Shown in pieces: positions 46,614-62,075 of a stretch of DNA of 64,000 nucleotides. A program made the translations under genes and the position numbers. Numbering within the stretch: the stretch's first letter is position 1; each line of letters opens with the position of its first letter. Source of the stretch: Cloacibacterium normanense (GTDB lineage: Bacteria > Bacteroidota > Bacteroidia > Flavobacteriales > Weeksellaceae); NCBI RefSeq assembly GCF_002943105.1, contig NZ_PTPZ01000001.1, positions 248,001 through 312,000 on the forward strand, in the 5' to 3' direction. The notes under the pieces are model-generated. The model was not told the DNA's origin. It worked only from the letters and a program-made list of their open reading frames with translations, and did no database searches.

Positions 46614-47462
46614 ATGCAAAACGTAGCATTTATCATCAATCCTTTTTCTGCAAAGAAAAATTATCAGCCTTTTCTTAATTCTTTACAAGCAAAGGTTGAA
46701 AATCCGTTGTATTTGATTTCTAAATCCATTCAAGATACTGAAGATTTCATCAAGGAAAATTTTGAAATAGTAGATATTTTCGTTGCTATTGGAGGTGATG
46801 GAACCATTTCTACAGTGGCGAAAAATTTAATTCACACGGATAAAATTCTCGGGATTTTCCCAGCAGGAAGTGGAAACGGTTTTTCTAATGAAACCAAGTT
46901 TTCTAAAAATTTAGACGAACTTTTAGCGAAAATCCAGAGAAAGAATTTCAAAGAAATAGATACGTTTACGGTAAACGAAAGATTTTCGATTAATGTAGCT
47001 GGAGTAGGATTTGATGGAGCAGTTATTGAAGCTTTTGAAAAGACTTCCAGAGGTTTCAAAAATTATATCAAAACTTCTATCCAGACTTTTTTTAAATACC
47101 AACCAATTTCCATCAAATTCGAAGAAAAATATAAAAAATTTGACGGAAAATATTTGATGCTCAACGTTGCAAACACCCGTCAATTCGGGAATAACGCCTA
47201 CATTGCTCCTCATGCAAGTAAAAGTGATGGCTTGTTAGAAATTGCTTTGGTAAAGAAGTTTCCTTTCTCGCATTCTGGCGTTTTTGCCTACAGAATGTTT
47301 ACCAAAAAATTGGTTCCCAATCAGTACATTCATTATTTGTCAGTTCCAGAAATTGAATTTTCTGTCGATTCAGATTTGTGGCATCTCGACGGCGAGTTTA
47401 ACCAAATTTCATCTCCAGTTAAAGTAAAAGTGCTTCCAAAAAGTTTAAGAATTTTAGTCTAA
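46614..47462 (+). CDS. Diacylglycerol kinase-family lipid kinase (YegS/BmrU-like)
   Basis: 282 residues. DAGK catalytic motif VAIGGDGTISTVAKNL (GGDGT, ~63-67) and FPAGSGNGFSNE (~82-93), plus the C-terminal beta-sandwich with HLDGEF. Soluble lipid/sphingoid-base kinase family; substrate uncertain. The start codon lies almost at the transcription start. Its 3' end overlaps the convergent photolyase gene by 9 nt. Confidence 0.9.
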   Translation: MQNVAFIINPFSAKKNYQPFLNSLQAKVENPLYLISKSIQDTEDFIKENFEIVDIFVAIGGDGTISTVAKNLIHTDKILGIFPAGSGNGFSNETKFSKNLDELLAKIQRKNFKEIDTFTVNERFSINVAGVGFDGAVIEAFEKTSRGFKNYIKTSIQTFFKYQPISIKFEEKYKKFDGKYLMLNVANTRQFGNNAYIAPHASKSDGLLEIALVKKFPFSHSGVFAYRMFTKKLVPNQYIHYLSVPEIEFSVDSDLWHLDGEFNQISSPVKVKVLPKSLRILV

Positions 47463-48758
47463 ATTATCTAAAGCTTCTTTGTATACTTTCAGTACTTTTT
47501 CTCTGGCTTTTTTATGCTCTAAGATAGGTTTTGGATAGTATTTTGTCCCAAATTCAGGAATCCATTTTTTAATATATTTAAAATCTGGATCGAATTTTTT
47601 CTGTTGTTCATCTGGATTGAAAATTCTAAAATAAGGAGCGGCATCACAACCAGAACTTGCGCACCATTGCCAGTTTCCATTATTCGCACTTAAATCGTAA
47701 TCCATTAATTTTTCCGCAAAATACGCTTCGCCAATTCGCCAGTCGGTAAGCAAATGTTTGATGAGAAAACTCGCCGTAATCATTCTCACTCTGTTGTGCA
47801 TAAATCCTGTAGCGTTCAGTTCACGCATTCCCGCATCTACAATAGGAAATCCCGTTTTACCAGCTTTCCATTTTTCTAAAAATTCAGCATTGTTTTCCCA
47901 AGGAATAGCATCATATTTTGGTTTGAAAGAATGATTGACCACTTTCGGAAAATGATACAAAATCTGCATGAAAAATTCTCTCCAAATCAATTCTTTCAGG
48001 AAAGTAAGATTATTTTCTTTGGCAATTTTGGCTAACTTTCTTACGCTAATGGTTCCAAATCTCAGATGAACGCCTAATTGTGTAGTTCCTTTTACCGCAG
48101 GGAAATTTCGAGTTTCTTCATAAGTTTTGATGATGTGAAGATCTGCTTCTGGAACTTCAAATTTTAAATCTGTTTTTTGAAATCCCATATCTTCTATTTT
48201 GAGTTCTTTAAATGAAATATCTAGTAAATTATCTAGTTTTTTTTCTGATGGAAATCCTTGTAAACCAACTTTTTGAAATTCATTGAGCCAAAGTTTTGAA
48301 TATGGAGTATAAACGGTGTAAGGTTTTTTATCGGCTTTTACAATTTCATCTTTGTGAAAAATAACTTGGTCTTTAAACTGATGAAAATTGATGTTTTTTG
48401 AAGCCAAAAAATCGGCAATTTCTTGGTCTCTTTTTATGGCGTAAGGTTCATAATCTTCATTGCTATAAACCGCCTCTATTTCGTAGTTCTGGGATAGTTT
48501 TTTGTAGATTTCCAGAGGTTTTCCTTTGAAGATTTTGATGCCTTTATTCTTTGATTTTAAAAAAGAATTCAGGGTTTGTAAAGCTTGTACAATGAAATCA
48601 ACTCTTTTATCCGACTTATTTTCTAATAAATCTAAAATATCTTCGTCAAAAATAAAAATCGGCAATACCTTTTTTCCCGATTCTAATGCTTGAAATAAAC
48701 CGTGATTGTCTTTTAACCGAAGGTCTCTTCTGAACCAAAAAATAGAAACTTTATCCAT
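47454..48758 (-). CDS. phrB: Class I CPD photolyase
   Basis: 434 residues. Repairs cyclobutane pyrimidine dimers using light and FADH-. N-terminal Rossmann domain (SIFWFRRDLRLKDNHGLFQALESGKKVLPIFIFD) and FAD domain with LIWREFFMQILYHFP, KWKAGKTGFPIVDAGMRELNATGFMHNRVRMITASFLIKHLLTDWRIGEAYFAEKLMDYDLSANNGNWQW, ending YFRIFNPDEQQKKFDPDFKYIKKW. The segment WCASSGCDAAPYFRIFNP fits CPD photolyase. Last gene of the nine-gene TetR-led operon; 2 nt behind the MarR gene. Confidence 0.94.
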   Translation of the reverse strand: MDKVSIFWFRRDLRLKDNHGLFQALESGKKVLPIFIFDEDILDLLENKSDKRVDFIVQALQTLNSFLKSKNKGIKIFKGKPLEIYKKLSQNYEIEAVYSNEDYEPYAIKRDQEIADFLASKNINFHQFKDQVIFHKDEIVKADKKPYTVYTPYSKLWLNEFQKVGLQGFPSEKKLDNLLDISFKELKIEDMGFQKTDLKFEVPEADLHIIKTYEETRNFPAVKGTTQLGVHLRFGTISVRKLAKIAKENNLTFLKELIWREFFMQILYHFPKVVNHSFKPKYDAIPWENNAEFLEKWKAGKTGFPIVDAGMRELNATGFMHNRVRMITASFLIKHLLTDWRIGEAYFAEKLMDYDLSANNGNWQWCASSGCDAAPYFRIFNPDEQQKKFDPDFKYIKKWIPEFGTKYYPKPILEHKKAREKVLKVYKEALDNLD

Positions 48759-48760
48759 GC

Positions 48761-49408
48761 TTATTCTATCAAATGAAGGAGTTCTTTAATCTCAGAGTTT
48801 TTGTATTCTGTGTACAAAGTGTAATGAAAATCGTTTACTTTTTTCAATAATTCTAGCAATTTTGTTTTTTCATCATTTTTAAGATTAGCCGAAAGAATTC
48901 TAGAAGTGGTATTGACTTTTTCTACCGATTGATGGAAGGCTTCTTCTCCTTTTTTGGTCAATGTCAATCTTTTGGCACGTTTGTCATTTTCATCCACCAT
49001 TTCTTGAATCAAACCATCGTCTAGAAGTCTTTTGATGATTTGAATTCCCGTTTGTTTTTCGTGACCGTTTCTTTCGATGAGTTGCATTTTGGTCAAAGAA
49101 GGCTCGTCTTTGAGTCTGTAGAGATAAGTAAATTCTTCGTTCGCTAAAGTCGGAAAATCGCTTAAACCCTTGCGAATCATTTGTTTAGAAAATCTACCCA
49201 AAAGCAAAACCTGTTTGCAAATTTCATTTTCTGTGAAACTTACATCGTGGTTTTCATTTTTAAAAAGTTTGGTCGGACTTTCCGTAGTATATTTTTTTTC
49301 GTTGAGCCAAATTCTGAAATCTTCTACCGTAGCATGATTTTTAAACGACTTAGAAAGTTCGTATTCCTGAACTTCTAGTAGGAGATTAATTAAAAAACTG
49401 GTTTCCAT
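48761..49408 (-). CDS. MarR-family winged-helix regulator with N-terminal extension
   Basis: 215 residues. A MarR wHTH occupies ~80-175: FTYLYRLKDEPSLTKMQLIERNGHEKQTGIQIIKRLLDDGLIQEMVDENDKRAKRLTLTKKGEEAF, with the DKRAKR wing. The ~60-residue N-terminal extension (YELSKSFKNHATVEDFRIWLNEKKY) is longer than in typical MarR proteins and recurs in Bacteroidota members. Encoded between the SDR and CPD photolyase genes (gaps 5 and 2 nt), so it is co-expressed with photorepair and may give the island a second, redox- or ligand-type input. Ligand unknown. Confidence 0.87.
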   Translation of the reverse strand: METSFLINLLLEVQEYELSKSFKNHATVEDFRIWLNEKKYTTESPTKLFKNENHDVSFTENEICKQVLLLGRFSKQMIRKGLSDFPTLANEEFTYLYRLKDEPSLTKMQLIERNGHEKQTGIQIIKRLLDDGLIQEMVDENDKRAKRLTLTKKGEEAFHQSVEKVNTTSRILSANLKNDEKTKLLELLKKVNDFHYTLYTEYKNSEIKELLHLIE

Positions 49409-49413
49409 ATTGC

Positions 49414-50112
49414 TTATAATTTAATAGTACTCATTCCTCCGTCAATGCCAAAAATCTGTCCGGTAATCCAAGAAGAAGAATCAGAAAGTAAAAATACAAC
49501 CATTTTTGCAATTTCTTCAGGATTTCCTATTTTCTGAAGCGGATGTCTTTTCGCAGCGGCTTCTCTTTTCTCTGGCGATGCCAATAAAGCAGTGGCTAAA
49601 TTGGTGTCTGAAAGTGATGGCGCAATAGCGTTAAATCTTATTTTTTGAAGCGAAAATTCTGCCGCTAAACTTTTTACCAAACCTTCTACAGCGCTTTTAC
49701 TTGCTGCGATAGAAGAATGAAAAGGCATTCCTAATTTTGCTGCAACGGTGCTGAATAAAACCACACTTGCACTGTCAGATTTTTTAAGATTTGGCAATAA
49801 TTTCTGAATGATTTTAATAGCGCCCAAAACATTAATTTCGAAATCTTTTTTGAAATCTTCTTCAGATAATCTGCCGAAAGGTTTCAGATTAATGCTTCCT
49901 GGTGCATAAACCAATCCATCAATTTTTTCAGGAAAAGAGACATCATCCAAACTGTCCTCTAGAATGTCTTTTTGGTAAAAATGAAGTTTTACATTATTCA
50001 ATTCTGGAGTTTCTGTTCTAGAAATTCCGATGATTTGCGCTTCGTTTTGTAATTGTTTTGCGGTGGCTAAACCTATTCCGCTTCCACAACCGATGATGAC
50101 TATATTTTTCAT
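49414..50112 (-). CDS. SDR-family protein of photolyase clusters, catalytic Tyr missing
   Basis: 232 residues. Classical SDR frame: cofactor loop GCGSGIG (~8-14), LVYAPGSINLKPFGRLSEEDFKKDFEINVLGA, Ser of the active site in VVLFSTVAA, and C-terminal NPEEIAKMVVFLLSDSSSWITGQIFGIDGGMS. The YxxxK motif reads IAASK: Ile at ~135 replaces the catalytic Tyr while Lys139 stays. The rest (FHSSIAASKSAVEGLVKSLAAEFS...APSLSDTNLA) looks like SDRs encoded beside photolyases and TIGR03643 in other bacteria, so the loss seems a subfamily trait. A 70-nt spacer with TCTAAAATCT repeats precedes it. Confidence 0.85.
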   Translation of the reverse strand: MKNIVIIGCGSGIGLATAKQLQNEAQIIGISRTETPELNNVKLHFYQKDILEDSLDDVSFPEKIDGLVYAPGSINLKPFGRLSEEDFKKDFEINVLGAIKIIQKLLPNLKKSDSASVVLFSTVAAKLGMPFHSSIAASKSAVEGLVKSLAAEFSLQKIRFNAIAPSLSDTNLATALLASPEKREAAAKRHPLQKIGNPEEIAKMVVFLLSDSSSWITGQIFGIDGGMSTIKL

Positions 50113-50182
50113 ATTATTTTAATTTTATGTTTTATTTTTTATCACAGATTTTAAATCTAAAATCTTACATCTAAAATCTCAT

Positions 50183-50467
50183 TTATCTCTTTGATATTTT
50201 ATTTAAACTTATGGTTCTCTGTCTGGTACATTTAAATCTCTCAATTTCTGGATTTCTTTTTTTCAGATGTTTTTGACTAATGCCAGAATTTACTCTTTTT
50301 CTCCAAAGATTGAAAGAACTTCTTTTCAGTTCAGTTCTCATAATAGCGATGGTTTCAGCTTCAGAAATTCCAAACTGAAAAGTGATAGCTTCAAATGGCG
50401 TTCTATCTTCCCATGCCATTTCTATAATTCTGTCGATTTGTTCTACACTAAAATTTTTTTTCATCAT
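50183..50467 (-). CDS. TIGR03643 family protein
   Basis: 94 residues. The N-terminal block FSVEQIDRIIEMAWEDRTPFEAITFQFGISEAETIAIMRTELKRSSFNLWRKRVNSG is TIGR03643 (DUF2805): a small helix-turn-helix-like, basic protein encoded beside photolyase or carotenoid genes in many marine and soil bacteria; function undetermined. ATGA overlap with the upstream photolyase gene (ATG at 50467 inside its stop), so translation is coupled. A second ATG follows immediately. Confidence 0.9.
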   Translation of the reverse strand: MMKKNFSVEQIDRIIEMAWEDRTPFEAITFQFGISEAETIAIMRTELKRSSFNLWRKRVNSGISQKHLKKRNPEIERFKCTRQRTISLNKISKR

Positions 50468-51945
50468 TGGTCTAATTTTTCTAAAAAGTTTTGAGCTCTC
50501 ACGAGATGTAATTCTTTTTGCTGTTCAGTCATTTTATTCCAAGTGATGAGCATCATGTTCAATCTTGGATTTTTTCTAAAAAATTCTTGATTTTTAGAGA
50601 TGAAATTCCAAAAAAGAGCATCCCAAATTTCTCCCCAATTTTCGGTGGAATAATCACTCATTTTTTTGAGGTAATTGCTTCCGCTGATATACGGCTTTGT
50701 GCTCATGATTCCGCCATCAGCAAATAAACTCATACCATAAACATTAGGAACCATCACCCAATCATACGCATCGATGAACATTTCCATAAACCATTGATAG
50801 ACATCATTTGGATGAAACTCACACAAATTCATAAAATTGGCGAGAATCATCAGTCGTTCAATGTGATGAGCATAGCCAGTTTTCAATATTTTTTTAATGG
50901 TTTTGTCAATCGGAGCAATTCCTGTAGTTCCATCGTAAAAAGATTTTGGAATTTTTCGTTGATGATTCCAAAAATTTCGGGTTCTTTCAAAACTACCTTG
51001 GTACAAATATATTCCTCGAATAAATTCTCGCCAACCTAAAATCTGACGAATGAATCCTTCTAATGAATTGAGTGGAATTTCATTTTTTTGAGCAAATTCT
51101 ATGGATTTTTCGATGATGTAATTTGGAGTTAAAAATCCAATGTTCATCAATGGAGACAACACACTGTGATGCAAAAAATGCTCATGTTCTACAATGCTGT
51201 CTTCATAAATTCCAAATTCCAAAAATCTATTTTCCAAGAAATTTTCAAGCCAAATTTCTGCTTCTGAATAGGTAGTAGGATAGATTTGATAATCTGTTAA
51301 TTCCCCGTAATGATTTCCGAAATTTTCAGAAACATAAACTTTCGCTTCTTCGTAAAAAAGGTTATTCTGAGGAAATGAAATAGAAGGCGATTTTTTATTT
51401 TTTGGATATTTTTTTCGGTTTTCTGTATCGAAGGTCCATTTTCCGCCAACTGGTTTTCCATTTTCTAAAAGAATGTTTCTAGAAATGCGCTGTTGCTTGT
51501 AAAAATCGGTTTGATGATAATGCTTTTTGCTTTGAAAATATACCTTTAAATCTTCTTTTGAATTGATAAAACTTGGGTTTTCAATAATCTCAACTTCTAG
51601 TTTTGTCTTTAAAATTCTCTTTTCCAACCAATCGTCACAAACATCTATGATTTTGATTTTTTCAAAACCTTCTTGTTCTAAAAATCCAATTAAATTTCGA
51701 ATGTCTGAAAGCTCCGAAATGCTTTCTATATAATGAACTTTGAATCCTTTTTCGAGTAGAAAATTTTCATAGAATTTCATCGTAGCTCTGTGAAAAGCCA
51801 GTTTCTGTTGGTGAAATGTATACTGTTTGAAAAACAAAAATTCTTCAACTAAAAACACAGGAATTTCCTTTTCAAGAAATGAAATCTCTTGAAACAACTG
51901 ATGCGGAAATATCAATTGTGCCGTTTTTAGTGGTTTTTCAGCCAT
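50464..51945 (-). CDS. FeS-BCP/PhrB-type photolyase homologue lacking iron-sulfur ligands
   Basis: 493 residues, family of bacterial (6-4) photolyases (Agrobacterium PhrB). Family motifs are clear: AQLIFPHQLF, FLEFGIYEDSIVEHEHFLHHSVLSPLMNIGFLTP, GFIRQILGWREFIRGIY, GYAHHIERLMILANFMNL, DAYDWVMVPNVYGMSLFADGGIMSTKPYISGSNYLKKMSDY. But the [4Fe-4S] ligand positions are empty: TGIAPID (~340) where relatives have TGMNC, and SDYSTENWGE (~430) where relatives have a YCxxCxY...ACPFN loop. Probably cluster-free; (6-4) repair is inferred. Overlaps the CRY-DASH gene by 19 nt. Confidence 0.88.
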   Translation of the reverse strand: MAEKPLKTAQLIFPHQLFQEISFLEKEIPVFLVEEFLFFKQYTFHQQKLAFHRATMKFYENFLLEKGFKVHYIESISELSDIRNLIGFLEQEGFEKIKIIDVCDDWLEKRILKTKLEVEIIENPSFINSKEDLKVYFQSKKHYHQTDFYKQQRISRNILLENGKPVGGKWTFDTENRKKYPKNKKSPSISFPQNNLFYEEAKVYVSENFGNHYGELTDYQIYPTTYSEAEIWLENFLENRFLEFGIYEDSIVEHEHFLHHSVLSPLMNIGFLTPNYIIEKSIEFAQKNEIPLNSLEGFIRQILGWREFIRGIYLYQGSFERTRNFWNHQRKIPKSFYDGTTGIAPIDKTIKKILKTGYAHHIERLMILANFMNLCEFHPNDVYQWFMEMFIDAYDWVMVPNVYGMSLFADGGIMSTKPYISGSNYLKKMSDYSTENWGEIWDALFWNFISKNQEFFRKNPRLNMMLITWNKMTEQQKELHLVRAQNFLEKLDQ

Positions 51946-53228
51946 AAATTTCTAAATTTTTTATCGCTATCGTATTGTTCTGCTTGTTTTTCTGTGTTGA
52001 AACTTCTGTCTCGTGCATCATTGCCTATTCCTGCCAAATACAACCAGTTTCCGTAATTGCTGTGAACATCATAATCGATGAGCATTTCCTCGAAATAGGC
52101 AGCGCCAATCCGCCAATCTAGTTTTAGATTTTTACAGAAATAGGAAGCTACATTTTGTCTTCCTCGGTTGCTCATGAAACCCGTTTTTTGGAGTTCAATC
52201 ATGTTGGCATTCACAAATTCTGAGTGCGTTTTTCCAGAAATCCATTGTTCTAATTTTTGAGGATTGTTCTGAAATTCTACATTTTTATAAGGTTGAAGTC
52301 CGTTTTTGTGAAAAATTTCATTGCGGTGTTGCAAAGCAATAAATTTGAAATAATCTCGCCACAGCAATTCGAAAATCAACCAATACGTAGATTCATTGGC
52401 TCCGAATTTTTGTTCAATTTTTTTCACTTCATCATAAATGGAAACTGCAGAAATGCTTCCATTGGCTAACCACGCCGAAAATTTAGAGCTGTAATCACTT
52501 CCTACCAATCCGTTTCTGGTATTTTTATAATCTTTAAGCAGTTGAGTTTCCTCAAAATAATAACGCAATCTTTCCCAAGCTGCGTTTTCACCGCCAGAAA
52601 AAGGAAATGCTGAATAAGGATGAGTCTCAAAATTTTCAAAACCTAATTTTTCTAAATCAATTTTGTCTGATGGAATTTCTAGTTTAAAAAACGTTTCCTT
52701 TTTTTCGATTTTGAAAGGTTTTCTTACGCTGAAATTCTTTTCAACCTTATTTCTGAAGGTGGTAAAAAGCGCAGGAATTTTTTCTAATCTTTCGAAAACA
52801 AAATCTGGTTCTAATAAAAATTGTGAGTAAGATTTTTCAAATTTCACATTGGATAGAGCAGAAGCAACACTTTTTTCTAAATCCACTTCTTCTTGGGTAA
52901 ATTCTTCTTCACAAAAGATTTTTTGAATAGAGTAGTGTTCATTCAACTTTTCAAAAATCTCCTTTGTTTTTCCAAATTTTATCAAAAAAGTGATGTTGAG
53001 TTCAGCAAGATTGTGTTGTAAATCTAGAACACTTTCCAACAAAAATTTTGCACGAAATTTCCCGATTTTTCTAAAACCAAACTGCTTTTTTTGATAAAAA
53101 TCTTCATCGAAAATATACAAAGCTATAAAAGGCAAATCTCCTTGATATGCCTTAAATAGTGATATTTGGTCTTTGGTTCTTAAATCATTTTTGAACCAAA
53201 CGATGTTGATTTTTTGTTTTTCCTGCAT
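51927..53228 (-). CDS. Cryptochrome DASH
   Basis: 433 residues. N-terminal antenna domain (NIVWFKNDLRTKDQISLFKAYQG...FDEDFY) and FAD domain with NTRNGLVGSDYSSKFSAWLANGSISAVSIYDEV, ELLWRDYFKFIALQHRNEIF, ELQKTGFMSNRGRQNVASYFCKNLKLDWRIGAAYFEEMLIDYDVHSNYGNWLYLAGIGNDARDRSFNTEKQAEQYDSDKKFRNLW. The ARDRSFNTEKQAEQYD ending is the CRY-DASH hallmark. DASH proteins repair CPDs in single-stranded DNA and may sense blue light. Its start lies within the DUF2256 gene (49-nt overlap). Confidence 0.94.
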   Translation of the reverse strand: MQEKQKINIVWFKNDLRTKDQISLFKAYQGDLPFIALYIFDEDFYQKKQFGFRKIGKFRAKFLLESVLDLQHNLAELNITFLIKFGKTKEIFEKLNEHYSIQKIFCEEEFTQEEVDLEKSVASALSNVKFEKSYSQFLLEPDFVFERLEKIPALFTTFRNKVEKNFSVRKPFKIEKKETFFKLEIPSDKIDLEKLGFENFETHPYSAFPFSGGENAAWERLRYYFEETQLLKDYKNTRNGLVGSDYSSKFSAWLANGSISAVSIYDEVKKIEQKFGANESTYWLIFELLWRDYFKFIALQHRNEIFHKNGLQPYKNVEFQNNPQKLEQWISGKTHSEFVNANMIELQKTGFMSNRGRQNVASYFCKNLKLDWRIGAAYFEEMLIDYDVHSNYGNWLYLAGIGNDARDRSFNTEKQAEQYDSDKKFRNLWLKNH

Positions 53229-53335
53229 TTTTCGCTACAATATTTCACTTCTTCCCAGTCTTTTTTCCATTTTTTGCGCCAGTTAAAGGGTAAACCGTAA
53301 ACTTCACAGATTTTTGAGGGCAAATTTTTAGGCAT
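53180..53335 (-). CDS. DUF2256 micro-protein, overlapping the CRY-DASH gene
   Basis: 51-residue reading frame starting ATG at 53335, too short for normal calling. It reads MPKNLPSKICEVYGLPFNW, then RKKWKKDWEEVKYCSEKCRK, ending at TAA 53182-53180. The pattern K-I-C-x-x-C-x-x-P-F-x-W-R-K-K-W...EVKYCSxxCR is DUF2256, a small zinc-ribbon-like family repeatedly found next to cryptochrome/photolyase genes. In this copy the second Cys of the first pair is Tyr (CEVY), so one of four expected zinc ligands is lost. Overlaps the ABC1 kinase stop by 8 nt and the CRY-DASH start by 49 nt. Confidence 0.85.
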   Translation of the reverse strand: MPKNLPSKICEVYGLPFNWRKKWKKDWEEVKYCSEKCRKNKKSTSFGSKMI

Positions 53336-54653: not shown

Positions 54654-54656
54654 TTT

Positions 54657-55313
54657 TTACGATTTTTGAAATTTTTCTTTCCACAAGAATTTGCCTAAAT
54701 CAATGATTTTTTTCAAAGGTTCATTGTTTAAGAATTCAAAACCTGTGTCAATGGTTTTTTCGATGAATAAATCTGTTTTTTCAAAACTTGGAGATTCGTC
54801 TTTTTGCCAAAATTCAATGATGGATAAAAAGTGTAACCAAAGCGCTTCTTCTCTAGATTTTTCATTGAAATTTTTAATAGAATCTTTAGCTTTTTCTAAA
54901 ATTTCTAAATCATTAAAGTCTAATGTTTTAATAAATTTTTGATGTTCAGATTTTAGTTCATGTAGTTTTTGTACAGTAGAAAGATTCTTTTTTCCTAAAA
55001 TCATTAGAACTAAAGACCTATTCATGGTAAGGTTTTCAAAAAAGATGAAATAAAGATTTAGTAATCTTTCTTTAGCGCTCATGTCTTCATAGCCTTCGAT
55101 TTCTAGAGAAAGTTCTAAAGATTTTTGAAAAAAATGCTTTAAAATTTCTTTCTCCAGATGTTCGAAGCTTGAAAAGAATTGATAAAATTCTTTTTCATCA
55201 AAGTGATTTTCTTGTGCAAAAACGAAGATATTTTTAGGTCTTTCTCCGTGAGTAAGTAGATAATTTCCGTAATCGGATAATATTTTTTCTGAATTGATGG
55301 TTTTATTTTTCAT
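54657..55313 (-). CDS. TetR/AcrR-family regulator heading the photorepair operon
   Basis: 218 residues. N-terminal HTH region ~1-65 with TetR hallmarks (SEKILSDYGNYLLTHGERPKNIFVFAQENHFDEKEFYQFFSSFEHLEKEILKHFF) and an all-helical ligand domain. It is the first gene of the leftward operon, divergent from the carotenoid operon. A perfect 18-bp palindrome lies 103 nt upstream of its ATG between the two promoters, a fitting operator for autoregulation and joint control. The signal sensed is unknown. Confidence 0.82.
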   Translation of the reverse strand: MKNKTINSEKILSDYGNYLLTHGERPKNIFVFAQENHFDEKEFYQFFSSFEHLEKEILKHFFQKSLELSLEIEGYEDMSAKERLLNLYFIFFENLTMNRSLVLMILGKKNLSTVQKLHELKSEHQKFIKTLDFNDLEILEKAKDSIKNFNEKSREEALWLHFLSIIEFWQKDESPSFEKTDLFIEKTIDTGFEFLNNEPLKKIIDLGKFLWKEKFQKS

Positions 55314-55409: not shown

Positions 55410-55417
55410 CAAAAATA
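55410..55417 (-). promoter_or_regulatory. -7 element (TATTTTTG) of the TetR/photolyase operon
   Basis: Exact TAnnTTTG on the minus strand; its TA overlaps the first two bases of the 18-bp palindrome. Confidence 0.72.
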
Positions 55418-55433
55418 GTAAAATATTTTACTA
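55416..55433. promoter_or_regulatory. Perfect 18-bp palindrome, candidate operator of the divergent light island
   Basis: TAGTAAAAT followed by ATTTTACTA, without mismatch or spacer. It overlaps the leftward -7 element and covers the -33 region of the rightward promoter, so one bound dimer could block both. The obvious candidate binder is the adjacent TetR protein. Confidence 0.72.
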
Positions 55434-55450: not shown

Positions 55451-55458
55451 TAAATTTG
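55451..55458 (+). promoter_or_regulatory. -7 element (TAAATTTG) of the ribA/crt operon
   Basis: Exact TAnnTTTG 31 nt before the GTP cyclohydrolase II ATG. Confidence 0.75.
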
Positions 55459-55489
55459 TACAATAATTATGATTTAAAAAATAGATAAT

Positions 55490-56092
55490 ATGATCAAGAT
55501 ACAAGCAGAATCAAAATTGCCTACAGATTTTGGAAAGTTCAAAATTGTAGCATTCTCAGAATCACAAGAAGATTGGATGCCGCACATTGCATTAATCTCT
55601 GAAAACACAGATTTTAACGGAGTGGTAAACGTAAGAATTCATTCAGAATGTATTACGGGAGAGATTTTTCATTCTCAAAAATGCGAGTGTGGTCAACAAT
55701 TAGATGCATCTATGAATTATATAGATGAAAATGGCGGAATTATTTTATATCTTCGTCAGGAAGGTAGAAATATTGGGATTATCAATAAAATAAAGGCTTA
55801 TCAGTTGCAAGAATTAGGTCTTGATACGGTAGAAGCTAATCTTCAGTTGGGTTTACCAGCAGATGATAGAGATTTTAATGTAGCGATAGAAATTCTTAAT
55901 ATTTTAGGTGTTAAAAAAATCAATCTTTTAACGAATAATCCCGAGAAATTAAGTTTTGTAGAAAACAGTAATATTCAATTGGTTAAGAGAATTCCACTGA
56001 ATATTAAGGCTAATCACATCAATAAATCATATTTAGAAACCAAAAAAAGTTATTTTGGACATCAATTAGAAGAAGCATTATCATCAATATAA
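55490..56092 (+). CDS. ribA: GTP cyclohydrolase II, stand-alone
   Basis: 200 residues; first step of riboflavin synthesis (GTP to diaminohydroxyribosylamino-pyrimidinone phosphate). Zinc site CITGEIFHSQKCECGQQLD with its three Cys, nucleotide region ILYLRQEGRNIGIINKIKAYQLQELGLDTVEANLQLGLPADDRDF, and LLTNNPEKL are intact; only the usual RGIG is RNIG. No DHBP synthase domain, unlike the housekeeping RibBA fusion common in this phylum, so this is probably an extra, regulated copy. As first gene of the carotenoid operon, opposite three flavin-dependent photolyases, it may raise FAD supply on illumination. Confidence 0.93.
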   Translation: MIKIQAESKLPTDFGKFKIVAFSESQEDWMPHIALISENTDFNGVVNVRIHSECITGEIFHSQKCECGQQLDASMNYIDENGGIILYLRQEGRNIGIINKIKAYQLQELGLDTVEANLQLGLPADDRDFNVAIEILNILGVKKINLLTNNPEKLSFVENSNIQLVKRIPLNIKANHINKSYLETKKSYFGHQLEEALSSI

Positions 56093-56106
56093 AAAATTAA
56101 ATACCC

Positions 56107-57567
56107 TTGAAAACAACAGTAATTATTGGTTCCGGATTTTCTTCGCTAGCTTCTGCTTGTTATATGGCAAAAGCTGGTTACAAAGTGACGGTTTTAGAAA
56201 AAAATGAACAATTAGGAGGAAGAGCTTCCATGATGGAAATTGATGGCTATAAGTTTGATATGGGCCCAAGTTGGTATTGGATGCCAGATATTTTCGAGAG
56301 ATTTTTTGCAGATTTTGGCAAAAAAGTTTCAGATTATTATGAGCTAGAAAAACTTTCGCCAGCTTATAGAGTGGTTTTTGGCGAAAATGATTACATCGAC
56401 ATCGAAGATACTCCAGAAAAAATCATTGCAACTTTCGAAAGAATAGAACCAGGCAGCGGAAAACATTTGAAAAAATTCATGGATGAAGCTCAAGAAAACT
56501 ACCGAATTGCGATGCAGGATTTGGTGTATAATCCAGGTTTATCATTGCTAGAATTGGTTTCTGTAGAAAGTGCTAAAAGACTAAATTTATTTGTCAAAAA
56601 TATTTCTGAGCAAGTAAGAAAGGAAATAAAAAATCCTAAATTGAGAAGTATTTTAGAATTTCCTGTATTGTTTTTAGGGGCAAAACCGAATAAAACTCCA
56701 GCTTTTTACAATTTTATGAATCATGCAGATTTCGGGTTGGGAACTTGGTATCCAAAAGGAGGTTTCAATGCGGTTGCACTTGGAATGGTGAAATTAGCCA
56801 AAGAATTAGGCGTAGAATTTCATGTGAATGAAGAAGTTATTGGAATAGATTATGAAAATAATCAAGCCAAAAAAATCAGAACTCAAAACGGAGTGTATGA
56901 AGCAGATGTTTTCATTTCTGGTGCAGATTATGCACACACCGAAAAACTCTTGAACGGAAACCGAAATTACAGTGAAGAATATTGGCAAAAGAAAACTTTT
57001 GCGCCGAGTTCATTCTTATATTATGTAGCTTTTAACAGAAAAGTGAACCATCTTTTGCATCATAATTTGTTCTTTGATACAGATTTTGAAGCTCATGCAA
57101 AAGAAATTTATGATACCAAAGAATTACCAAAACAACCTTTATTTTATGCTAATTTTTCGAGCAAAACAGATGATTCCCTTTGTGAAGAAGGTAAGGAAGT
57201 TGGATTTTTCCTTATTCCAGTTGCGGTAGATTTAGAAGACAACGAAGAAATTCACGAAAAATATTTCCAGTTGATTCTCGATAGAATTAAAAAATGTACG
57301 GGAGAAGATTTAAGTGATGCCATAGTTTTCAAAAAATCATTCGGTGTAAAAGATTTCAAAGAGCGTTATCATTCTTGTAGAGGAAACGCTTATGGTTTGG
57401 CAAATACCTTATTGCAAACATCGGTTTTAAGACCAACGATTAAGAATAAAAAATTGAAAAATTTCTTTTATACAGGGCAATTAACTGTTCCAGGACCTGG
57501 AGTTCCACCTGCATTAATTTCTGGAAAAGTAGTCACAGATTATATTTTAAAAAACACAAAATCTTAA
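56107..57567 (+). CDS. crtI: Phytoene desaturase
   Basis: 486 residues. FAD-binding N terminus KTTVIIGSGFSSLASACYMAKAGYKVTVLEKNEQLGGRA, the substrate region MEIDGYKFDMGPSWYWMPDIFERFF, and the C-terminal CrtI signature RGNAYGLANTLLQTSVLRPTIKNKKLKNFFYTGQLTVPGPGVPPALISGKVV. Converts phytoene to lycopene. Start is TTG: an in-frame stop lies three codons upstream and the Rossmann strand begins at residue 3, so no ATG is possible. 14 nt after ribA, 7 nt before crtB. Confidence 0.96.
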   Translation: MKTTVIIGSGFSSLASACYMAKAGYKVTVLEKNEQLGGRASMMEIDGYKFDMGPSWYWMPDIFERFFADFGKKVSDYYELEKLSPAYRVVFGENDYIDIEDTPEKIIATFERIEPGSGKHLKKFMDEAQENYRIAMQDLVYNPGLSLLELVSVESAKRLNLFVKNISEQVRKEIKNPKLRSILEFPVLFLGAKPNKTPAFYNFMNHADFGLGTWYPKGGFNAVALGMVKLAKELGVEFHVNEEVIGIDYENNQAKKIRTQNGVYEADVFISGADYAHTEKLLNGNRNYSEEYWQKKTFAPSSFLYYVAFNRKVNHLLHHNLFFDTDFEAHAKEIYDTKELPKQPLFYANFSSKTDDSLCEEGKEVGFFLIPVAVDLEDNEEIHEKYFQLILDRIKKCTGEDLSDAIVFKKSFGVKDFKERYHSCRGNAYGLANTLLQTSVLRPTIKNKKLKNFFYTGQLTVPGPGVPPALISGKVVTDYILKNTKS

Positions 57568-57574
57568 AAGTAAT

Positions 57575-58423
57575 ATGAATAATTTTCAAATTTTTAATCA
57601 CATTTCTGGATTAACCTCGAAAATGGTTACCGAAAAATACAGTACGTCTTTTTCCAGAGCTTCTACTTTATTTAAGCCAGAAATTAGACAACATATTTAT
57701 AATATTTATGGTTTTGTGCGATTTGCAGACGAGATTGTAGATACTTTTCATGATTACGACAAAGCAAAATTGCTAGAGGAATTCGAGAAAAACTACAGAG
57801 ATGCACTGGAAAATGGTATTTCTCTCAATCCTATTCTTCATTCTTTTTGTACCACACAAAGAGAGAAAAATATTCCTCAGCATTTGGTAGATGCGTTTTT
57901 GCATTCTATGAGAATGGATTTGGGCGATATCAAGGATTTGAATGACGAAAAATACAATGAATACATCTACGGAAGCGCAGAAGTAGTAGGTTTAATGTGT
58001 TTGAAAGTATTTGTAGATGGCAATGAAGAAGAATATCAAAAACTGAAACCTTATGCACAAAGTTTAGGAGCGGCGTTCCAAAAAATAAATTTTTTAAGAG
58101 ATATTTCTGCAGATTATACAGATTTAGGAAGAACTTATTTCCCGAATGTGAATTTCAGAAATTTTTCTCAACAGGATAAATTAGAAATCGAAAAAGACAT
58201 TGCTAAAGATTTTGAACATTCTTTGATCGGGATTAAAATGTTGCCGATGTCTTCAAGATTAGCGGTTTTTATGGCGTATAAATACTACACGAATTTATTC
58301 AAGAAAATTAAAAAATGTAAGCCAGAAATATTGATGCACAAAAGAATCAGTGTTTCTAATGCGAGGAAAGTTTATCTTTTTGGAGAGATGATTTTGTTTA
58401 AAAATCTTAACTTCGTAAGATAA
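57575..58423 (+). CDS. crtB: Phytoene synthase
   Basis: 282 residues, trans-prenyl head-to-head synthase joining two geranylgeranyl-PP. Both Asp-rich motifs are present: FVRFADEIVDTFHDYD and INFLRDISADYTDLGRTYFP. Other family segments are YSTSFSRASTLF and VVGLMCLKVF. Second carotenoid step gene of the operon. Confidence 0.95.
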   Translation: MNNFQIFNHISGLTSKMVTEKYSTSFSRASTLFKPEIRQHIYNIYGFVRFADEIVDTFHDYDKAKLLEEFEKNYRDALENGISLNPILHSFCTTQREKNIPQHLVDAFLHSMRMDLGDIKDLNDEKYNEYIYGSAEVVGLMCLKVFVDGNEEEYQKLKPYAQSLGAAFQKINFLRDISADYTDLGRTYFPNVNFRNFSQQDKLEIEKDIAKDFEHSLIGIKMLPMSSRLAVFMAYKYYTNLFKKIKKCKPEILMHKRISVSNARKVYLFGEMILFKNLNFVR

Positions 58424-58434
58424 ATTTAAAATCT

Positions 58435-58890
58435 ATGAAAAAGTTAGTTCTTGTATTTTTATTGTTTTGCAGTTTTATCAATGCACAAAGTTTAGTAGAG
58501 TTAAGAGGTTATCTTCAAAAAGGTGAAAACTCAGAAGAAGTAAGTAAAACCCTTATTTCAAAATCTAAAAATGCTTATGATACAACTAAAAAGCCTATTT
58601 ACATGGCATTTTATGCGGTAGGTAATTTTTTTATGGCAAAACACGCATCTAATCCTTTGAATAAATATTCTTATTTCAATAAAGGGAAAAAGTTGCTTGA
58701 AGATGCAATTAAAAAAGAACCCAACAATATAGAAATCAGATTGATGAGATTGATTTCTCAAGAAAAAACACCAAGTTTTTTGGGTTACAATAAAAATATA
58801 GAAGCAGACCGAAATTTCATTATTAAGAACTATAAAAATTCAGATGATGAAAATCTAGTGAAATTCATCAAAAACTATCTAAAAATCTAA
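58435..58890 (+). CDS. Exported protein of unknown function in the carotenoid operon
   Basis: 151 residues with a signal peptide (MKKLVLVFLLFCSFINAQ). The mature part looks like a single TPR-like helical repeat (YSYFNKGKKLLEDAIKKEPNNIEIRLMRLISQEKTPSFLGYNKNIEADRNFIIKNY). I know no function for it. Gaps of 11 nt to crtB and 9 nt to crtZ place it firmly inside the operon. Possibly helps carotenoid placement in the envelope; this is speculation. Confidence 0.75.
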   Translation: MKKLVLVFLLFCSFINAQSLVELRGYLQKGENSEEVSKTLISKSKNAYDTTKKPIYMAFYAVGNFFMAKHASNPLNKYSYFNKGKKLLEDAIKKEPNNIEIRLMRLISQEKTPSFLGYNKNIEADRNFIIKNYKNSDDENLVKFIKNYLKI

Positions 58891-58899
58891 AATTAAAAA

Positions 58900-59370
58900 A
58901 TGGAAGTATTGCAATATTTTTTCATCACATTAGGCGTTTTCGTTACCATGGAAGGCATTACTTGGCTCACGCACAAGTATATTATGCATGGTTTAGGTTG
59001 GTATTTTCACGAAGATCACCATCAACCAGGTTATCCTCATGTTTTTGAAAAAAATGATTTCTTTTTTGTGATTTTTGCGATTCCTAGTATTCTATTATTC
59101 TATTTCGGAACGGTAAATGGAATCAACTATCTTTTTTTCATAGGACTAGGAATTTTACTGTACGGAATGGCTTATTTTTTAGTGCATGATGTTCTCATTC
59201 ACAGACGTTTTAAATGGTTTGATAAAACCAATAACTGGTATTTACGTGGATTGAGAAAAGCGCACAAAATGCACCATAAACATCTTGGAAAAGAAGAAGG
59301 AGAGTGTTTCGGGATGCTTTTCGTGCCTTTGAAATATTTCAGAGAAGCAATGAATTCAAAAATAGCTTAA
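58900..59370 (+). CDS. crtZ: Beta-carotene hydroxylase (CrtZ type)
   Basis: 156 residues, di-iron membrane hydroxylase producing zeaxanthin from beta-carotene. All four His motifs: HKYIMHG, HEDHHQP, HDVLIHRR and HKMHHKH, with four TM helices. Length equals known CrtZ. Its presence with a cyclase and no ketolase predicts zeaxanthin as the end product, the usual yellow pigment of flavobacteria. Confidence 0.95.
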   Translation: MEVLQYFFITLGVFVTMEGITWLTHKYIMHGLGWYFHEDHHQPGYPHVFEKNDFFFVIFAIPSILLFYFGTVNGINYLFFIGLGILLYGMAYFLVHDVLIHRRFKWFDKTNNWYLRGLRKAHKMHHKHLGKEEGECFGMLFVPLKYFREAMNSKIA

Positions 59371-59426
59371 TCCATTTTTCTTTTTGAATTAACTGGTTAA
59401 TTATTCATTAATTTAAAATCAAAGTT

Positions 59427-60146
59427 TTGCAACAATATTATTACATAGCTCTAGATATCTTGAGTTTCAGCATTCCTTTTATCTTCAGTTTTGAGAAAAA
59501 ATGGATGAATTTTATCCGTTTTTGGAAACCTTATTTTTTGGCAATCATTACAGTGGGAATTTTCTTTATTCTATGGGATATTTATTTTGCTTACCAAAAT
59601 GTTTGGGGTTTTAATGACGAATATTTAATGGGAATCAGATGGTTTAAATTGCCACTCGAAGAATGGTTATTTTTCTTGCTTATTCCTTATTCCAGCAATT
59701 TTATTCACTATTCTTTAGAATATTTCTTCCCGAAATTGCAGTTGACCAAAAAATTGACACAATGGATTTCTGTTCTTCTATTAATCGTAAGTGCAAGTGT
59801 TTTTGCCACCAATTTAGATAGAATTTACACCGCAGCAAGTTTTGGTTTGTTTGCATTATTGATGATTTTCCAAATTTTTTATCAATGGGAATATGCACGA
59901 AAGTTTTACATCAGTTTTGTGCTGATTTATGTGCCGTTTTTCTTTGTTAATTCCGCTTTGACGGGAAGTTATTCAGAAAATCCAGTGGTTTTTTATGATA
60001 ATAATGAAAACCTCGGAATCAGAGTGGGAACCATGCCTTTAGAAGACAGTTTTTACTGTTTTTCGATGCTTTACGGAAGTGTTTTATTGTTTGAATATTT
60101 TAGAAGAAAATGGAACTATTCATTATCAATGTCTGTAAAATCTTAA
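59427..60146 (+). CDS. Lycopene beta-cyclase, fused CrtYc-CrtYd (heterodimer-type) domains
   Basis: 239 residues, six to seven TM helices in two homologous halves; each half keeps the acidic signature, PLEEWLFFLLIP in the first and MPLEDSFYCF in the second. This is the membrane cyclase class of actinobacterial CrtYcYd and the N-terminal part of fungal CarRP, unrelated to the FAD-type CrtY. Start assigned to TTG at 59427 because the first TM helix (YYYIALDILSFSIPFIFSF) precedes the first in-frame ATG. 56-nt gap after crtZ. Confidence 0.9.
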   Translation: MQQYYYIALDILSFSIPFIFSFEKKWMNFIRFWKPYFLAIITVGIFFILWDIYFAYQNVWGFNDEYLMGIRWFKLPLEEWLFFLLIPYSSNFIHYSLEYFFPKLQLTKKLTQWISVLLLIVSASVFATNLDRIYTAASFGLFALLMIFQIFYQWEYARKFYISFVLIYVPFFFVNSALTGSYSENPVVFYDNNENLGIRVGTMPLEDSFYCFSMLYGSVLLFEYFRRKWNYSLSMSVKS

Positions 60147-60165
60147 TTTAAAATAAAATTCAAAG

Positions 60166-60651
60166 ATGAAAATCAATATAAAAAAGCAGTCAGGAATTTA
60201 TACACTTACTTCGGAACAGATTCTTCCTATTTCTTTAGAAAAAGCTTGGGAATTTTTTACCCATCCTAATAATTTAGACAGAATTACGCCGAAAGAAATG
60301 CAGTTCAAAATCACCAATAATCCGCCAGATAAAACGTATCTTGGTCAAATTATTACCTATAAAATTGGGATTTTGCCAATGGTAAAAAGCAATTGGATTA
60401 CAGAAATTACGCATTTCGAAGACCAAAAATTTTTCGTAGATGAACAGCGTTTTGGACCTTATGCAATGTGGCATCACGAACACCATTTCGAAGCTACAGA
60501 AGATGGAAGAGTAAAAATGACGGATATTGTCAATTTCAAACTTCCTCTTGGAGTTTTTGGAGATTTATTGGCAGGTTTTTATGTTAAAAATAAAGTGAAA
60601 TTTATTTTTGAAAGTCGTTTTAAAATTTTAGAAGAAATCTTTAAATCATGA
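60166..60651 (+). CDS. SRPBCC (polyketide cyclase-like) protein of the light island
   Basis: 161 residues, helix-grip fold: LTSEQILPISLEKAWEFFTHPNNLDRITPKEMQFKITN at the N terminus and GPYAMWHHEHHFEATEDGRVKMTDIVNFKLPLG later. Proteins of this type recur beside photolyases and SDR-DUF2867 genes in several phyla. Overlaps the next gene by 4 nt (ATGA). Ligand unknown; a hydrophobic pigment or isoprenoid is conceivable. Confidence 0.87.
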   Translation: MKINIKKQSGIYTLTSEQILPISLEKAWEFFTHPNNLDRITPKEMQFKITNNPPDKTYLGQIITYKIGILPMVKSNWITEITHFEDQKFFVDEQRFGPYAMWHHEHHFEATEDGRVKMTDIVNFKLPLGVFGDLLAGFYVKNKVKFIFESRFKILEEIFKS

Positions 60652-62075
60652 AAATTTTTCTTACAGGAGCCACAGGTTATATCGGGAAAAGACTTCTCAT
60701 TCAGTTGTTAGAAGAAGGTCATGATGTAGTATGTTCTGTAAGAGACCAAAAAAGATTAAGCCTAAAACTCTATCAAAATCATCTTGAAAAAATTCAAATT
60801 ATAGAAAATGATTTTCTAGATGAAAATTCTTTACAAAATATTCCACAAGATATAGATTTTGCTTATTATCTGGTGCATTCTATGTCTTCTGGTAGTGGGA
60901 ATTTCTCAGAAAAAGAGAGAATTTCTGCCGAAAATTTCAGAAAAGCATTAGAAAAAACTTCAGTGAAACAAGTCGTTTTCCTCACTGGAATTATCAATGA
61001 GGAAAAACTTTCAGAACATCTTCAGTCCAGAAAAAACGTAGAAAAAGCGCTTAAAAGTGATAATTATGCTTTAACCTGTCTCAGAGCTGGAATTATTGTA
61101 GGTTCTGGTAGTGCTTCTTTTGAAATTATCAGAGATTTGGTAGAGAAACTGCCGATTATGGTTGCTCCAAAATGGTTGAAAACAAAATGTCAACCGATTG
61201 CCATCAGAAATGTGATTCAGTTTTTGACCAAAGTTATCGGCGTAGAAAAAACCTACAATCAAAACTATGATATTGCAGGTCAAGATGTTCTTACTTACAA
61301 AGAAATGTTGCTTCAATACGCCGAAGTTAGAGGTCTGAAACGGTGGATTTTTACCGTTCCTGTAATGACGCCTAAATTGTCTTCGTATTGGTTATACTTT
61401 ATTACTTCTACCACCTATTCTTTGGCGGTGAATTTAGTGGACAGCATGAAAATAGATGTGATTGCAAGACAAAATTCTTTGGCTTCGGACTTAGGAATTC
61501 ATTTATTTTCTTACAAAGAAGCAATTAACATGGCTTTTGACAAAATCAAGCAAAATGACGTGTTAAGCAGTTGGTATGATTCTTTTAACAATCAGTTTCA
61601 CAAGCGAAATGTTTGGCAATATTTAGAAGTTCCAGAGAAAGGTTGTTTTACAGATTTCAGAATTATGAAAGTAGACAATGAGGAATTGGCGTTGGAAAGA
61701 GTTTTCAGTATTGGTGGAAAAACAGGTTGGTATTATGCTAATTTTCTTTGGAAAATCAGAGGTTTTTTAGATAAATTAATCGGTGGAGTAGGATTAAGAA
61801 GAGGCAGAAGAAATCAAAACGAATTAGAAGCAGGAGATTCTGTAGATTTTTGGCGCGTTTTATATGCCAACAAAGAAGAAAAACGCCTTTTACTTTTCGC
61901 CGAAATGAAAGTTCCTGGCGAAGCTTGGTTAGAATTTTATATTAAAAATGGAGAGTTGTACCAAGAAGCAACTTTTCGTCCATTAGGATTATCAGGAAGG
62001 TTGTATTGGTATTCAGTTTTACCATTTCACGGTTTAATTTTCAATGGAATGCTTCGTAAATTAGCTGGGAAATAA
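60648..62075 (+). CDS. SDR-family protein fused to a DUF2867/SRPBCC-like C-terminal domain
   Basis: 475 residues. Atypical extended SDR N terminus (MKIFLTGATGYIGKRLLIQLLEEGHDVVCSVRD; DFAYYLVHSMSSGSGNFSEKE; QVVFLTGII) to ~290, followed by DUF2867 (GKTGWYYANFLWKIRGFLDKLIGGVGLRRGRRNQNELEAGDSVDFWRVLYANKEEKRLLLFAEMKVPGEAWLEF...LSGRLYWYSVLPFHGLIFNGML). Function unknown. Last gene of the carotenoid operon; its stop codon directly abuts that of the convergent ggt gene (no spacer). Confidence 0.9.
   Translation: MKIFLTGATGYIGKRLLIQLLEEGHDVVCSVRDQKRLSLKLYQNHLEKIQIIENDFLDENSLQNIPQDIDFAYYLVHSMSSGSGNFSEKERISAENFRKALEKTSVKQVVFLTGIINEEKLSEHLQSRKNVEKALKSDNYALTCLRAGIIVGSGSASFEIIRDLVEKLPIMVAPKWLKTKCQPIAIRNVIQFLTKVIGVEKTYNQNYDIAGQDVLTYKEMLLQYAEVRGLKRWIFTVPVMTPKLSSYWLYFITSTTYSLAVNLVDSMKIDVIARQNSLASDLGIHLFSYKEAINMAFDKIKQNDVLSSWYDSFNNQFHKRNVWQYLEVPEKGCFTDFRIMKVDNEELALERVFSIGGKTGWYYANFLWKIRGFLDKLIGGVGLRRGRRNQNELEAGDSVDFWRVLYANKEEKRLLLFAEMKVPGEAWLEFYIKNGELYQEATFRPLGLSGRLYWYSVLPFHGLIFNGMLRKLAGK

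Follow-up and report, generated by a model that had tools for sequence, protein, structure and literature searches.

Analysis of a 64,000-nucleotide (nt) stretch of the Cloacibacterium normanense genome (contig NZ_PTPZ01000001.1, positions 248,001 to 312,000; here referred to as the window) revealed a light-defence island at 47454-62075, in which 17 open reading frames (ORFs) form two divergent operons. The leftward operon encodes photolyases and the rightward operon encodes RibA and carotenoid enzymes. We consider it moderately probable that the island is a light-defence regulon switched by its own MarR-family protein and that it carries an isoprenoid-handling module composed of a COQ9-like and a COQ8-like protein. 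The genome to which the window belongs comprises 2.84 Mb in 19 contigs and is 99.97% complete. The elements at the centre of this reading are listed below, with coordinates referring to the window.

48761..49408, minus strand: MarR-family regulator, a candidate for repressing the two operons (MarR_2/HTH_27; a linked marR gene tracks the operator box)
53328..54653, minus strand: soluble COQ8-like ABC1 atypical kinase/ATPase (PF03109, 2.2e-56; short type, no strongly hydrophobic segment)
54657..55313, minus strand: "TetR", a COQ9-like protein of TetR fold, DNA binding unlikely (PF17931; acidic helix-turn-helix [HTH]; weak COQ9 matches; structure model and fold search)
55410..55417, minus strand: leftward promoter −7 element TATTTTTG (sequence; promoter alignment)
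55417..55432, no strand: putative operator palindrome AGTAAAATATTTTACT, between the divergent promoters (sequence; cross-locus comparison)
55451..55458, plus strand: rightward promoter −7 element TAAATTTG (sequence; promoter alignment)

Two putative operators accompany two types of regulator

The divergent promoter region spans 176 nt. On the leftward side, TATTTTTG lies directly beside the AGTAAAATATTTTACT palindrome, and we take TATTTTTG and TAAATTTG to be Bacteroidota −7 consensus elements. Upstream regions were compared across 112 loci, comprising 31 fetched regions, the window, and 80 named loci, with two duplicates among them (L075/L139 and L072/L140). A box matching AGTAAANNNNTTTACT with at most one mismatch was present in the 220 nt upstream of the TetR-like gene in 21 of the 30 loci with a linked marR gene and in none of the 82 loci without one; single-base shuffles of the box reached this level in 0.5%. 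Allowing two mismatches, the counts were 27/30 and 4/82, respectively, and after removal of the duplicates and restriction to 150 nt, 20/29 and 0/81. Even with two mismatches allowed, the box was missing from three marR-positive loci, L058, L060, and L076. In L060, marR lies upstream of tetR, and only sites with three mismatches occur in the upstream region of marR itself. The marR-negative loci whose TetR-like protein is 56 to 62% identical (L072/L140, L145, and L150) also lack the box.

A different motif, TTTGTTTAA-N16-TTAAACA, was found with at most one mismatch within 150 nt upstream in 53 of the 82 marR-negative loci and in none of the 30 marR-positive loci, and shuffles predicted 0.28 of 82 at up to two mismatches. 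No region contained both operators, while 27 of the 110 distinct upstream regions contained neither at up to two mismatches. The same motif preceded crtI in 9 of the 14 marR-negative loci that hold this gene. Thirteen marR-negative loci carry a CarH-type MerR gene that is either adjacent to crtI or no more than about 1.3 kb away, and the motif preceded this gene in eight of them. All 13 MerR proteins retain Wx9EH and ExHxxG, which we take to be the B12 motifs of CarH, and the sole protein tested, from L048, had CarH/LitR entries as its best PDB matches. By motif scan, no CarH/LitR-type gene was detected in the stretches examined of the 30 marR-positive loci or in the 64-kb window, the rest of the genome not having been searched. 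What counts against a two-regulator reading is that 7 of the 13 loci with a MerR gene lack the motif before the TetR-like gene, even at up to two mismatches; four of the seven (L185, L200, L204, and L217) have codirectional crt genes upstream. A further 102 places matching the motif (up to two mismatches, both strands) were located away from the tracked genes within the 1,533 kb of marR-negative loci.

Collectively, this comparison argues for one regulon with two alternative regulators, in which MarR probably replaces CarH here, and we infer that the MerR protein binds TTTGTTTAA-N16-TTAAACA. The original prediction had united pigment and photorepair genes in one regulon. This view is strengthened by the operator in the shared divergent promoter of the window and by other flavobacterial loci, in which one motif stands before both the crtI and the tetR-abc1 operons. 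Its second proposal, an input unlike that of the CarH/LitR kind, agrees with the distribution of CarH-type genes described above. The swap from a CarH-type gene with one operator to MarR with another resembles a single light regulon with two unrelated modes of control, and it supplies exact sites to test.

Genome-wide, AGTAAAATATTTTACT occurred at 148 places at up to three mismatches, compared with 157 for the reversed control, and we therefore claim no wider regulon for it in the window genome. An excess of palindromes of any sequence upstream of tetR was not clear-cut (20/30 marR-positive and 47/82 marR-negative loci, with expected fractions of 0.50 and 0.34). The inverted repeat TTAAACA-N0-7-TGTTTAA was considered as an operator and rejected, the motif found being TTTGTTTAA-N16-TTAAACA.

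The TetR-like protein has an acidic helix-turn-helix

In the window TetR-like protein, TetR_C_23 was the sole Pfam match at E ≤ 0.001, and TetR_N did not match even at E ≤ 10. In 21 genomes, TetR_N had 84 matches, and none fell on any of the 11 module genes that these genomes contain. It was also missing from the 25 best families for 81 module proteins (those of the window and the 80 named loci), which leaves room for a match in one member. These proteins were compared with 31 ordinary TetRs from relatives; two of an initial 33, L238 and L239, were dropped because the ORF picked was not the TetR. The controls had been picked by TetR_N, and their own TetR_N score of 31/31 is circular. Over a 23-residue HTH window, the mean net charge was −2.59 in the module proteins and +0.81 in the ordinary TetRs (p 1e-14, a value that, like all our p-values, is overstated because the loci are related). 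HTH position −4 was acidic in 81/81 module proteins and in 1/31 controls, and position +6 was Lys or Arg in 0/81 and 31/31, respectively. The HTH region is conserved among the module proteins and is therefore functional; its acidic character makes recognition of DNA unlikely, and DNA binding has probably been lost.

Besides TetR_C_23, the most frequent family was COQ9, which matched 14 of 28 and then 45 of 81 module proteins in Pfam (best 0.0022) and, weakly, 70 of 81 in NCBIfam (best 8.9e-5). COQ9 was not among the 25 best families for the 31 control TetRs, where the lowest family had 2 members in Pfam and 15 in NCBIfam, so that weak COQ9 matches in up to that many controls would have gone unseen. 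When a profile of 79 C-terminal positions (24 of the 81 proteins) was run against 177,635 PDB sequences, eight matches were obtained at E ≤ 10, namely, three COQ9 entries (0.45-0.98), 3ni7 (0.22), and four unrelated proteins. The entry 3ni7 is annotated as a TetR and shares the FWxxDxS stretch of the module proteins. The AlphaFold model of the window protein (predicted local distance difference test [pLDDT] 88) adopts the TetR fold and has an extra predicted C-terminal helix at residues 199-216 (pLDDT about 69). Foldseek placed 3c07, two chains of 3ni7, and human COQ9 (6awl) at ranks 1 to 4, none with an E value better than 1.9e-3. In PMC9774615, COQ9 is portrayed as a TetR-fold protein of an atypical kind that is not predicted to bind DNA and that carries an amphipathic helix, alpha10.

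These data suggest that the "TetR" protein is probably not a DNA-binding regulator and is instead a COQ9-like TetR-fold protein. The original prediction had chosen tetR as the gene to delete; the acidic HTH, the COQ9 likeness, and the pairing with abc1 at all loci seen make MarR the stronger candidate regulator, with binding to the operator predicted. The label "TetR regulator" would mislead for this family, relatives of which are encoded in at least 538 stretches.

A short ABC1 kinase is paired with the TetR-like protein

The window kinase has an ABC1 domain with the catalytic motifs (PF03109, 2.2e-56), and its PDB relatives were 7cy2, 5yjz, COQ8B (9tvk; 1.2e-24), and COQ8A forms (COQ8A 4.8e-20). 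It scored 151.7 bits with the UbiB equivalog model TIGR01982, well under the cut-off of 487.55 bits. ABC1 kinases above 170 bits fell into two groups. The long group has frames of about 550 to 600 amino acids, scores of 214 to 250 bits, and, in the eight sequences displayed, a hydrophobic segment near the C terminus. The short group comprises proteins of about 440 amino acids with scores of 172 to 197 bits, none of them strongly hydrophobic. Among 112 short ABC1 proteins, GSALKVAQML, which we take to be the equivalent of the UbiB KxGQ motif, was found in 108, and HADPHPGN was found in 111.

TetR_C_23 exceeded its cut-off in 32 of 149 genomes of relatives, and the short ABC1 was present in exactly the same 32. 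In all 31 fetched regions and in the window, abc1 was the next tracked gene on the same strand after the TetR-like gene, at a distance of at most 117 nt except in L067 (484 nt). All 80 named loci contained both genes in that order, 78 of them with a gap between −60 and 300 nt. One genome without a short ABC1, G053, retains a TetR_C_23 remnant below the cut-off and with a stop codon (C1:1831819-1831962), possibly a trace of a joint loss of the two genes. COQ7, the coenzyme Q gene served by the known COQ8/COQ9 pair, exceeded its cut-off in none of the 149 genomes, a single weak match falling short of it, and to our knowledge flavobacteria use menaquinone and have no ubiquinone.

The module was also seen in two Sphingobacterium records (L145 and L150), in which the TetR-like protein is 56 to 60% identical to that of the window, above most Flavobacteriaceae records; this suggests horizontal transfer. 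A contig labelled as a Klebsiella pneumoniae metagenome-assembled genome (L208) carries a flavobacterial-type module and is probably mis-binned.

The 32 genomes with the module differed from the other 117 in their content of light-related genes. Photolyase was found in 32/32 module genomes versus 49/117 others, phytoene synthase in 29/32 versus 53/117, DUF2805 in 24/32 versus 18/117, DUF2867 in 25/32 versus 24/117, and DPRP in 18/32 versus 13/117. The association of the module is complete for photolyase and incomplete for phytoene synthase.

Further candidate lipid-type proteins in the island and at related loci

The last two genes of the rightward operon, srpbcc and sdr2867, overlap by 4 nt in the window and are adjacent in 11 of the 32 loci that have both. 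The window SRPBCC protein had no Pfam match even at E ≤ 10, and its profile gave no convincing match to PDB sequences. In an alignment of 23 proteins including that of the window, 17 matched PF03364 ("polyketide cyclase/dehydrase and lipid transport"; best 2.6e-5), the family to which COQ10 presumably belongs.

The model of the SDR-DUF2867 protein had a pLDDT of 81, and the fold search was run over about residues 1-303. For this N-terminal domain, the best 50 VIA matches were all chains of complex I or supercomplexes (Z 25.9-28.3); those named in the PDB profile search were NDUFA9/39-kDa subunits, with the exception of 9g83 (epimerase type) and 8iuf (NDUEG4). Foldseek returned complex I chains intermixed with sugar epimerases, and the profile against PDB sequences ranked 9g83 first and NDUFA9 proteins next. 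The modelled N-terminal domain is thus of an NDUFA9-like fold, and the C-terminal DUF2867 domain looks helix-grip (START-like), as judged by eye from the order of strands and helices. The available text of PMC11495197 describes yeast Coq11 as an atypical SDR whose closest relative in higher eukaryotes is NDUFA9 and which interacts genetically with Coq10.

In 43 of the 112 loci, the gene immediately after abc1 is Flavin_Reduct-like (Pfam checked on three proteins); no such gene is present in the regions of the window's own genus. Such genes were seen after abc1 in L162, L163, L190, and L217 and at 10853-11539 in L160. According to the part of PMC10279924 at hand, Coq12 of Schizosaccharomyces pombe belongs to the Flavin_Reduct Pfam family. 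The parallels of the SRPBCC, SDR, and Flavin_Reduct proteins to COQ proteins lie at the level of superfamilies.

Model and alternative explanations

In the model that we propose, the island MarR would switch both divergent operons together at the one palindrome between their promoters, with light as the presumed trigger. The first two genes of the leftward operon would form a module, encoding a COQ9-like protein of TetR fold that would have lost DNA binding and a COQ8-like ABC1 ATPase that is soluble. At the membrane, the former may load a polyprenoid lipid into its pocket with the help of a putatively amphipathic C-terminal helix, and the ATPase may drive extraction of the lipid and its hand-over to membrane-lipid enzymes. 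The lipid would be received by the carotenoid enzymes and by the NDUFA9/Coq11-like SDR, and the START-like SRPBCC protein may serve as a lipid carrier. Photolyases, flavin supply by RibA, and the carotenoids themselves would complete the response.

Besides the overstated p-values, several results weigh against the COQ9 part of this model. The window protein stays under the curated COQ9 cut-offs (PF08511, 11.9 of 20.5 bits; TIGR02396, 13.6 of 74.55 bits), and 35 of the 81 module proteins match the NCBIfam model of the TetR repressor CurR. Whole-protein profiles run against PDB retrieved bacterial TetRs first (FadR at 4.2e-5, with 13 matches at E ≤ 1; in a second profile, a best value of 2.8e-4 with 15 matches at E ≤ 10), and COQ9 was not listed among these whole-protein matches. 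The hydrophobic moment of the C-terminal helix was 0.37, compared with a background of 0.25 and a 95th percentile of 0.45. The VIA Z scores of 3c07 (16.5) and 3ni7 (15.8) exceeded that of COQ9 (13.4), and scores near 13 are attainable by unrelated helical bundles; the modelled fold is compatible with COQ9 but does not single it out. As an alternative, the TetR-like protein might be a genuine repressor that controls its own abc1 operon in response to a lipid, by way of an unusual HTH. The TetR fold, the bacterial regulators at the head of the fold and whole-protein searches, the conservation of the HTH residues, which have not decayed, their profile similarity to ordinary TetRs, and the position of the TetR-like gene as the first of its operon in most loci would suit such a protein. 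We nevertheless regard such a repressor as unlikely, since HTH position −4 is invariably acidic, position +6 is never Lys or Arg, and TetR_N is not among the families listed. Moreover, the upstream operator changes with the linked marR gene, while the TetR-like protein is present in all 112 loci.

That the two operons are independent neighbours sharing sunlit habitats, with the ABC1 pair being a general stress or quinone factor placed here by chance, appears improbable to us. Such independence would explain why 13 of the 112 loci have no light-cluster gene in the stretch examined (some stretches being short) and why crt genes are not near the module in most named loci, with crtI in the stretch examined for only 14 of 80. 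Both counts also weigh against our model, the latter against carotenoid as the sole substrate. Independence of the operons is at odds, however, with the single operator in the divergent promoter that is kept across genera, with the one motif that elsewhere precedes the tetR-abc1 operon, the crtI operon, and the CarH-like gene, and with the presence of photolyase in every module genome. A variant of our model in which only the substrate differs deserves more weight, although it remains tentative: the module may serve the handling of menaquinone rather than carotenoid, for redistribution or repair of quinones under light stress. The COQ8-, COQ9-, and Coq11-type proteins known elsewhere act on quinones, as stated in the accessible parts of PMC9774615 and PMC11495197, and the three of 32 module genomes without a phytoene synthase match speak against carotenoid as the sole substrate. 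On the other side, the partner operon in the window is one for carotenoid enzymes, and none of the island genes was recognised as a menaquinone gene.

Comparison with known systems

The module resembles the COQ8-COQ9 pair of coenzyme Q biosynthesis in combining an ABC1/COQ8-type kinase with a TetR-fold partner, and the island TetR-like protein has a COQ9-type C-terminal motif and a predicted extra C-terminal helix. As a further likeness, the two genes are neighbours in every locus seen. Unlike that pair, they occur in bacteria without COQ7 over the cut-off and are linked to photolyase and carotenoid genes; the window TetR-like protein also differs from COQ9 in scoring under the curated cut-offs. 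The likeness extends to yeast Coq11/NDUFA9 through the N-terminal fold of the SDR-DUF2867 protein (sections of PMC11495197) and to S. pombe Coq12 through the Flavin_Reduct-like gene after abc1 (sections of PMC10279924). In contrast to Coq11/NDUFA9, the island protein has an added DUF2867 domain, and the superfamilies concerned are broad; with respect to Coq12, the gene is missing from the regions of the window's genus. The mechanical role of COQ8 and COQ9 is still debated in the portions available of PMC11495197 and PMC7615680, and a search of open-licence papers retrieved no bacterial COQ9-ABC1 operon.

Among light-responsive regulons, the closest to the island is that of CrtR in Corynebacterium glutamicum. 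The obtainable text of PMC6739363 presents CrtR as a MarR-type repressor of light-inducible carotenoid genes, with no known B12 step and an unsettled ligand, acting at a carotenoid operon with a divergent promoter. The island differs in the placement of marR at the distal end of the photorepair operon, in a clear palindrome of 16 bp, and in the inclusion of photolyase genes, whereas phrB is not controlled by CrtR in C. glutamicum according to the same portion of that source (PMC6739363). CarH/LitR regulons similarly place carotenoid and photolyase genes under one regulator, and 13 related loci have a CarH-type gene in the vicinity of crtI; no such gene was seen in the loci with a linked marR gene, and MarR is found there with another operator.

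What is new is the COQ9-like/COQ8-like pair and the exchange of regulators, not a TetR-controlled light operon. Speculatively, the flavobacterial set of non-catalytic coenzyme Q helpers (COQ8-, COQ9-, Coq10-, Coq11-, and often Coq12-like) might be a light-responsive isoprenoid-handling machine that acts on carotenoids or menaquinone in cells that make no ubiquinone. If so, a general lipid-extraction module would predate the eukaryotic COQ helpers, which would be one of its uses, and COQ8/COQ9 function could be addressed in the flavobacterial cluster as a simple genetic system. With the COQ8/COQ9-like pair in one operon, a coloured product made next door, and COQ7 missing, the question would become testable outside mitochondria.

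Organization and conservation of the island

The remaining ORFs of the island are as follows.

47454..48758, minus strand: photolyase, CPD type by family models (PF00875/PF03441; TIGR03556, 366.7 bits, under its cut-off)
49414..50112, minus strand: classical SDR (adh_short_C2, 7.7e-43)
50183..50467, minus strand: TIGR03643/DUF2805 small protein (PF10985, 8.6e-34; TIGR03643 over cut-off)
50464..51945, minus strand: prokaryotic 6-4 photolyase-related protein without CxxC...C ligands (DPRP, 3.7e-51)
51927..53228, minus strand: CRY-DASH (TIGR02765, 455.9 bits, cut-off 317)
53180..53335, minus strand: DUF2256 small protein of 51 amino acids (PF10013, 1.4e-19)
55490..56092, plus strand: GTP cyclohydrolase II, ribA (PF00925, 1.7e-57; NF001591 over cut-off)
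56107..57567, plus strand: crtI, CrtID type, phytoene desaturase/3,4-desaturase (NF058655, 705 bits, cut-off 640)
57575..58423, plus strand: crtB, phytoene synthase (SQS_PSY, 1.1e-42)
58435..58890, plus strand: exported protein, possible TPR (signal-like N terminus by eye; weak TPR_17, 0.036)
58900..59370, plus strand: crtZ, carotene hydroxylase (no useful Pfam match at E ≤ 10; HxxxxH and HxxHH boxes in the sequence, which we take to be the CrtZ motif)
59427..60146, plus strand: CrtYcd-type lycopene cyclase (PF18916, 2.6e-35; TIGR03462 over cut-off)
60166..60651, plus strand: SRPBCC/START-like protein, Coq10-like at superfamily level (alignment members match PF03364)
60648..62075, plus strand: NDUFA9/Coq11-like atypical SDR with DUF2867 domain (Pfam; fold search; PDB profile matches)

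All 17 ORFs of the original prediction were found in place, and its names proved broadly right, with Pfam and NCBIfam backing photolyase, MarR, SDR, DUF2805/TIGR03643, DPRP, CRY-DASH, DUF2256, ABC1, RibA, CrtI, SQS_PSY, Lycopene_cyc, and SDR-DUF2867. The tight packing that it had described was likewise seen in the measured distances, which are 3, −8, −49, −19, −4, 70, 5, and 2 nt from tetR to phr in the leftward operon and 14, 7, 11, 9, 56, 19, and −4 nt from ribA onward in the rightward one. Four of the six regions from the window's own genus retain every gene between yegS and ggt. In other genomes of the same family, the divergent tetR-abc1 // crtI or ribA arrangement occurs with subsets of the genes, or less is left; Chryseobacterium and Kaistella are among the named relatives of the window genome. 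The island is therefore real and conserved.

The two other own-genus regions, L070 (11502-11920) and L075 (7831-8258), lack the CRY-DASH and DPRP genes but keep the neighbours. Nothing else is missing from L070, the L075 contig stops inside ribA, and no DPRP match was found in the genome of either. In L071, one of the four regions with every gene, CRY-DASH lies in two pieces about 1.4 kb apart (5629-8333), as if by an insertion.

The three photolyase classes of the original prediction need a caveat, since the FeS-BCP homologue of the window is of the cluster-less kind and lacks the C-terminal CxxC...C ligands of the 4Fe-4S cluster. These ligands were absent in 21 of 30 DPRP loci and present in nine (eight by pattern and L117 by eye). 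Cluster-less prokaryotic 6-4 photolyases, termed subgroup M, have already been described in the consulted part of PMC9178010, and the window protein resembles them in its missing cluster cysteines.

The small exported protein at 58435-58890 keeps its position between crtB and crtZ in several genomes. In a Tenacibaculum locus (L217), a TspO/MBR gene (9518-9991) lies between crtY and the TetR-like gene.

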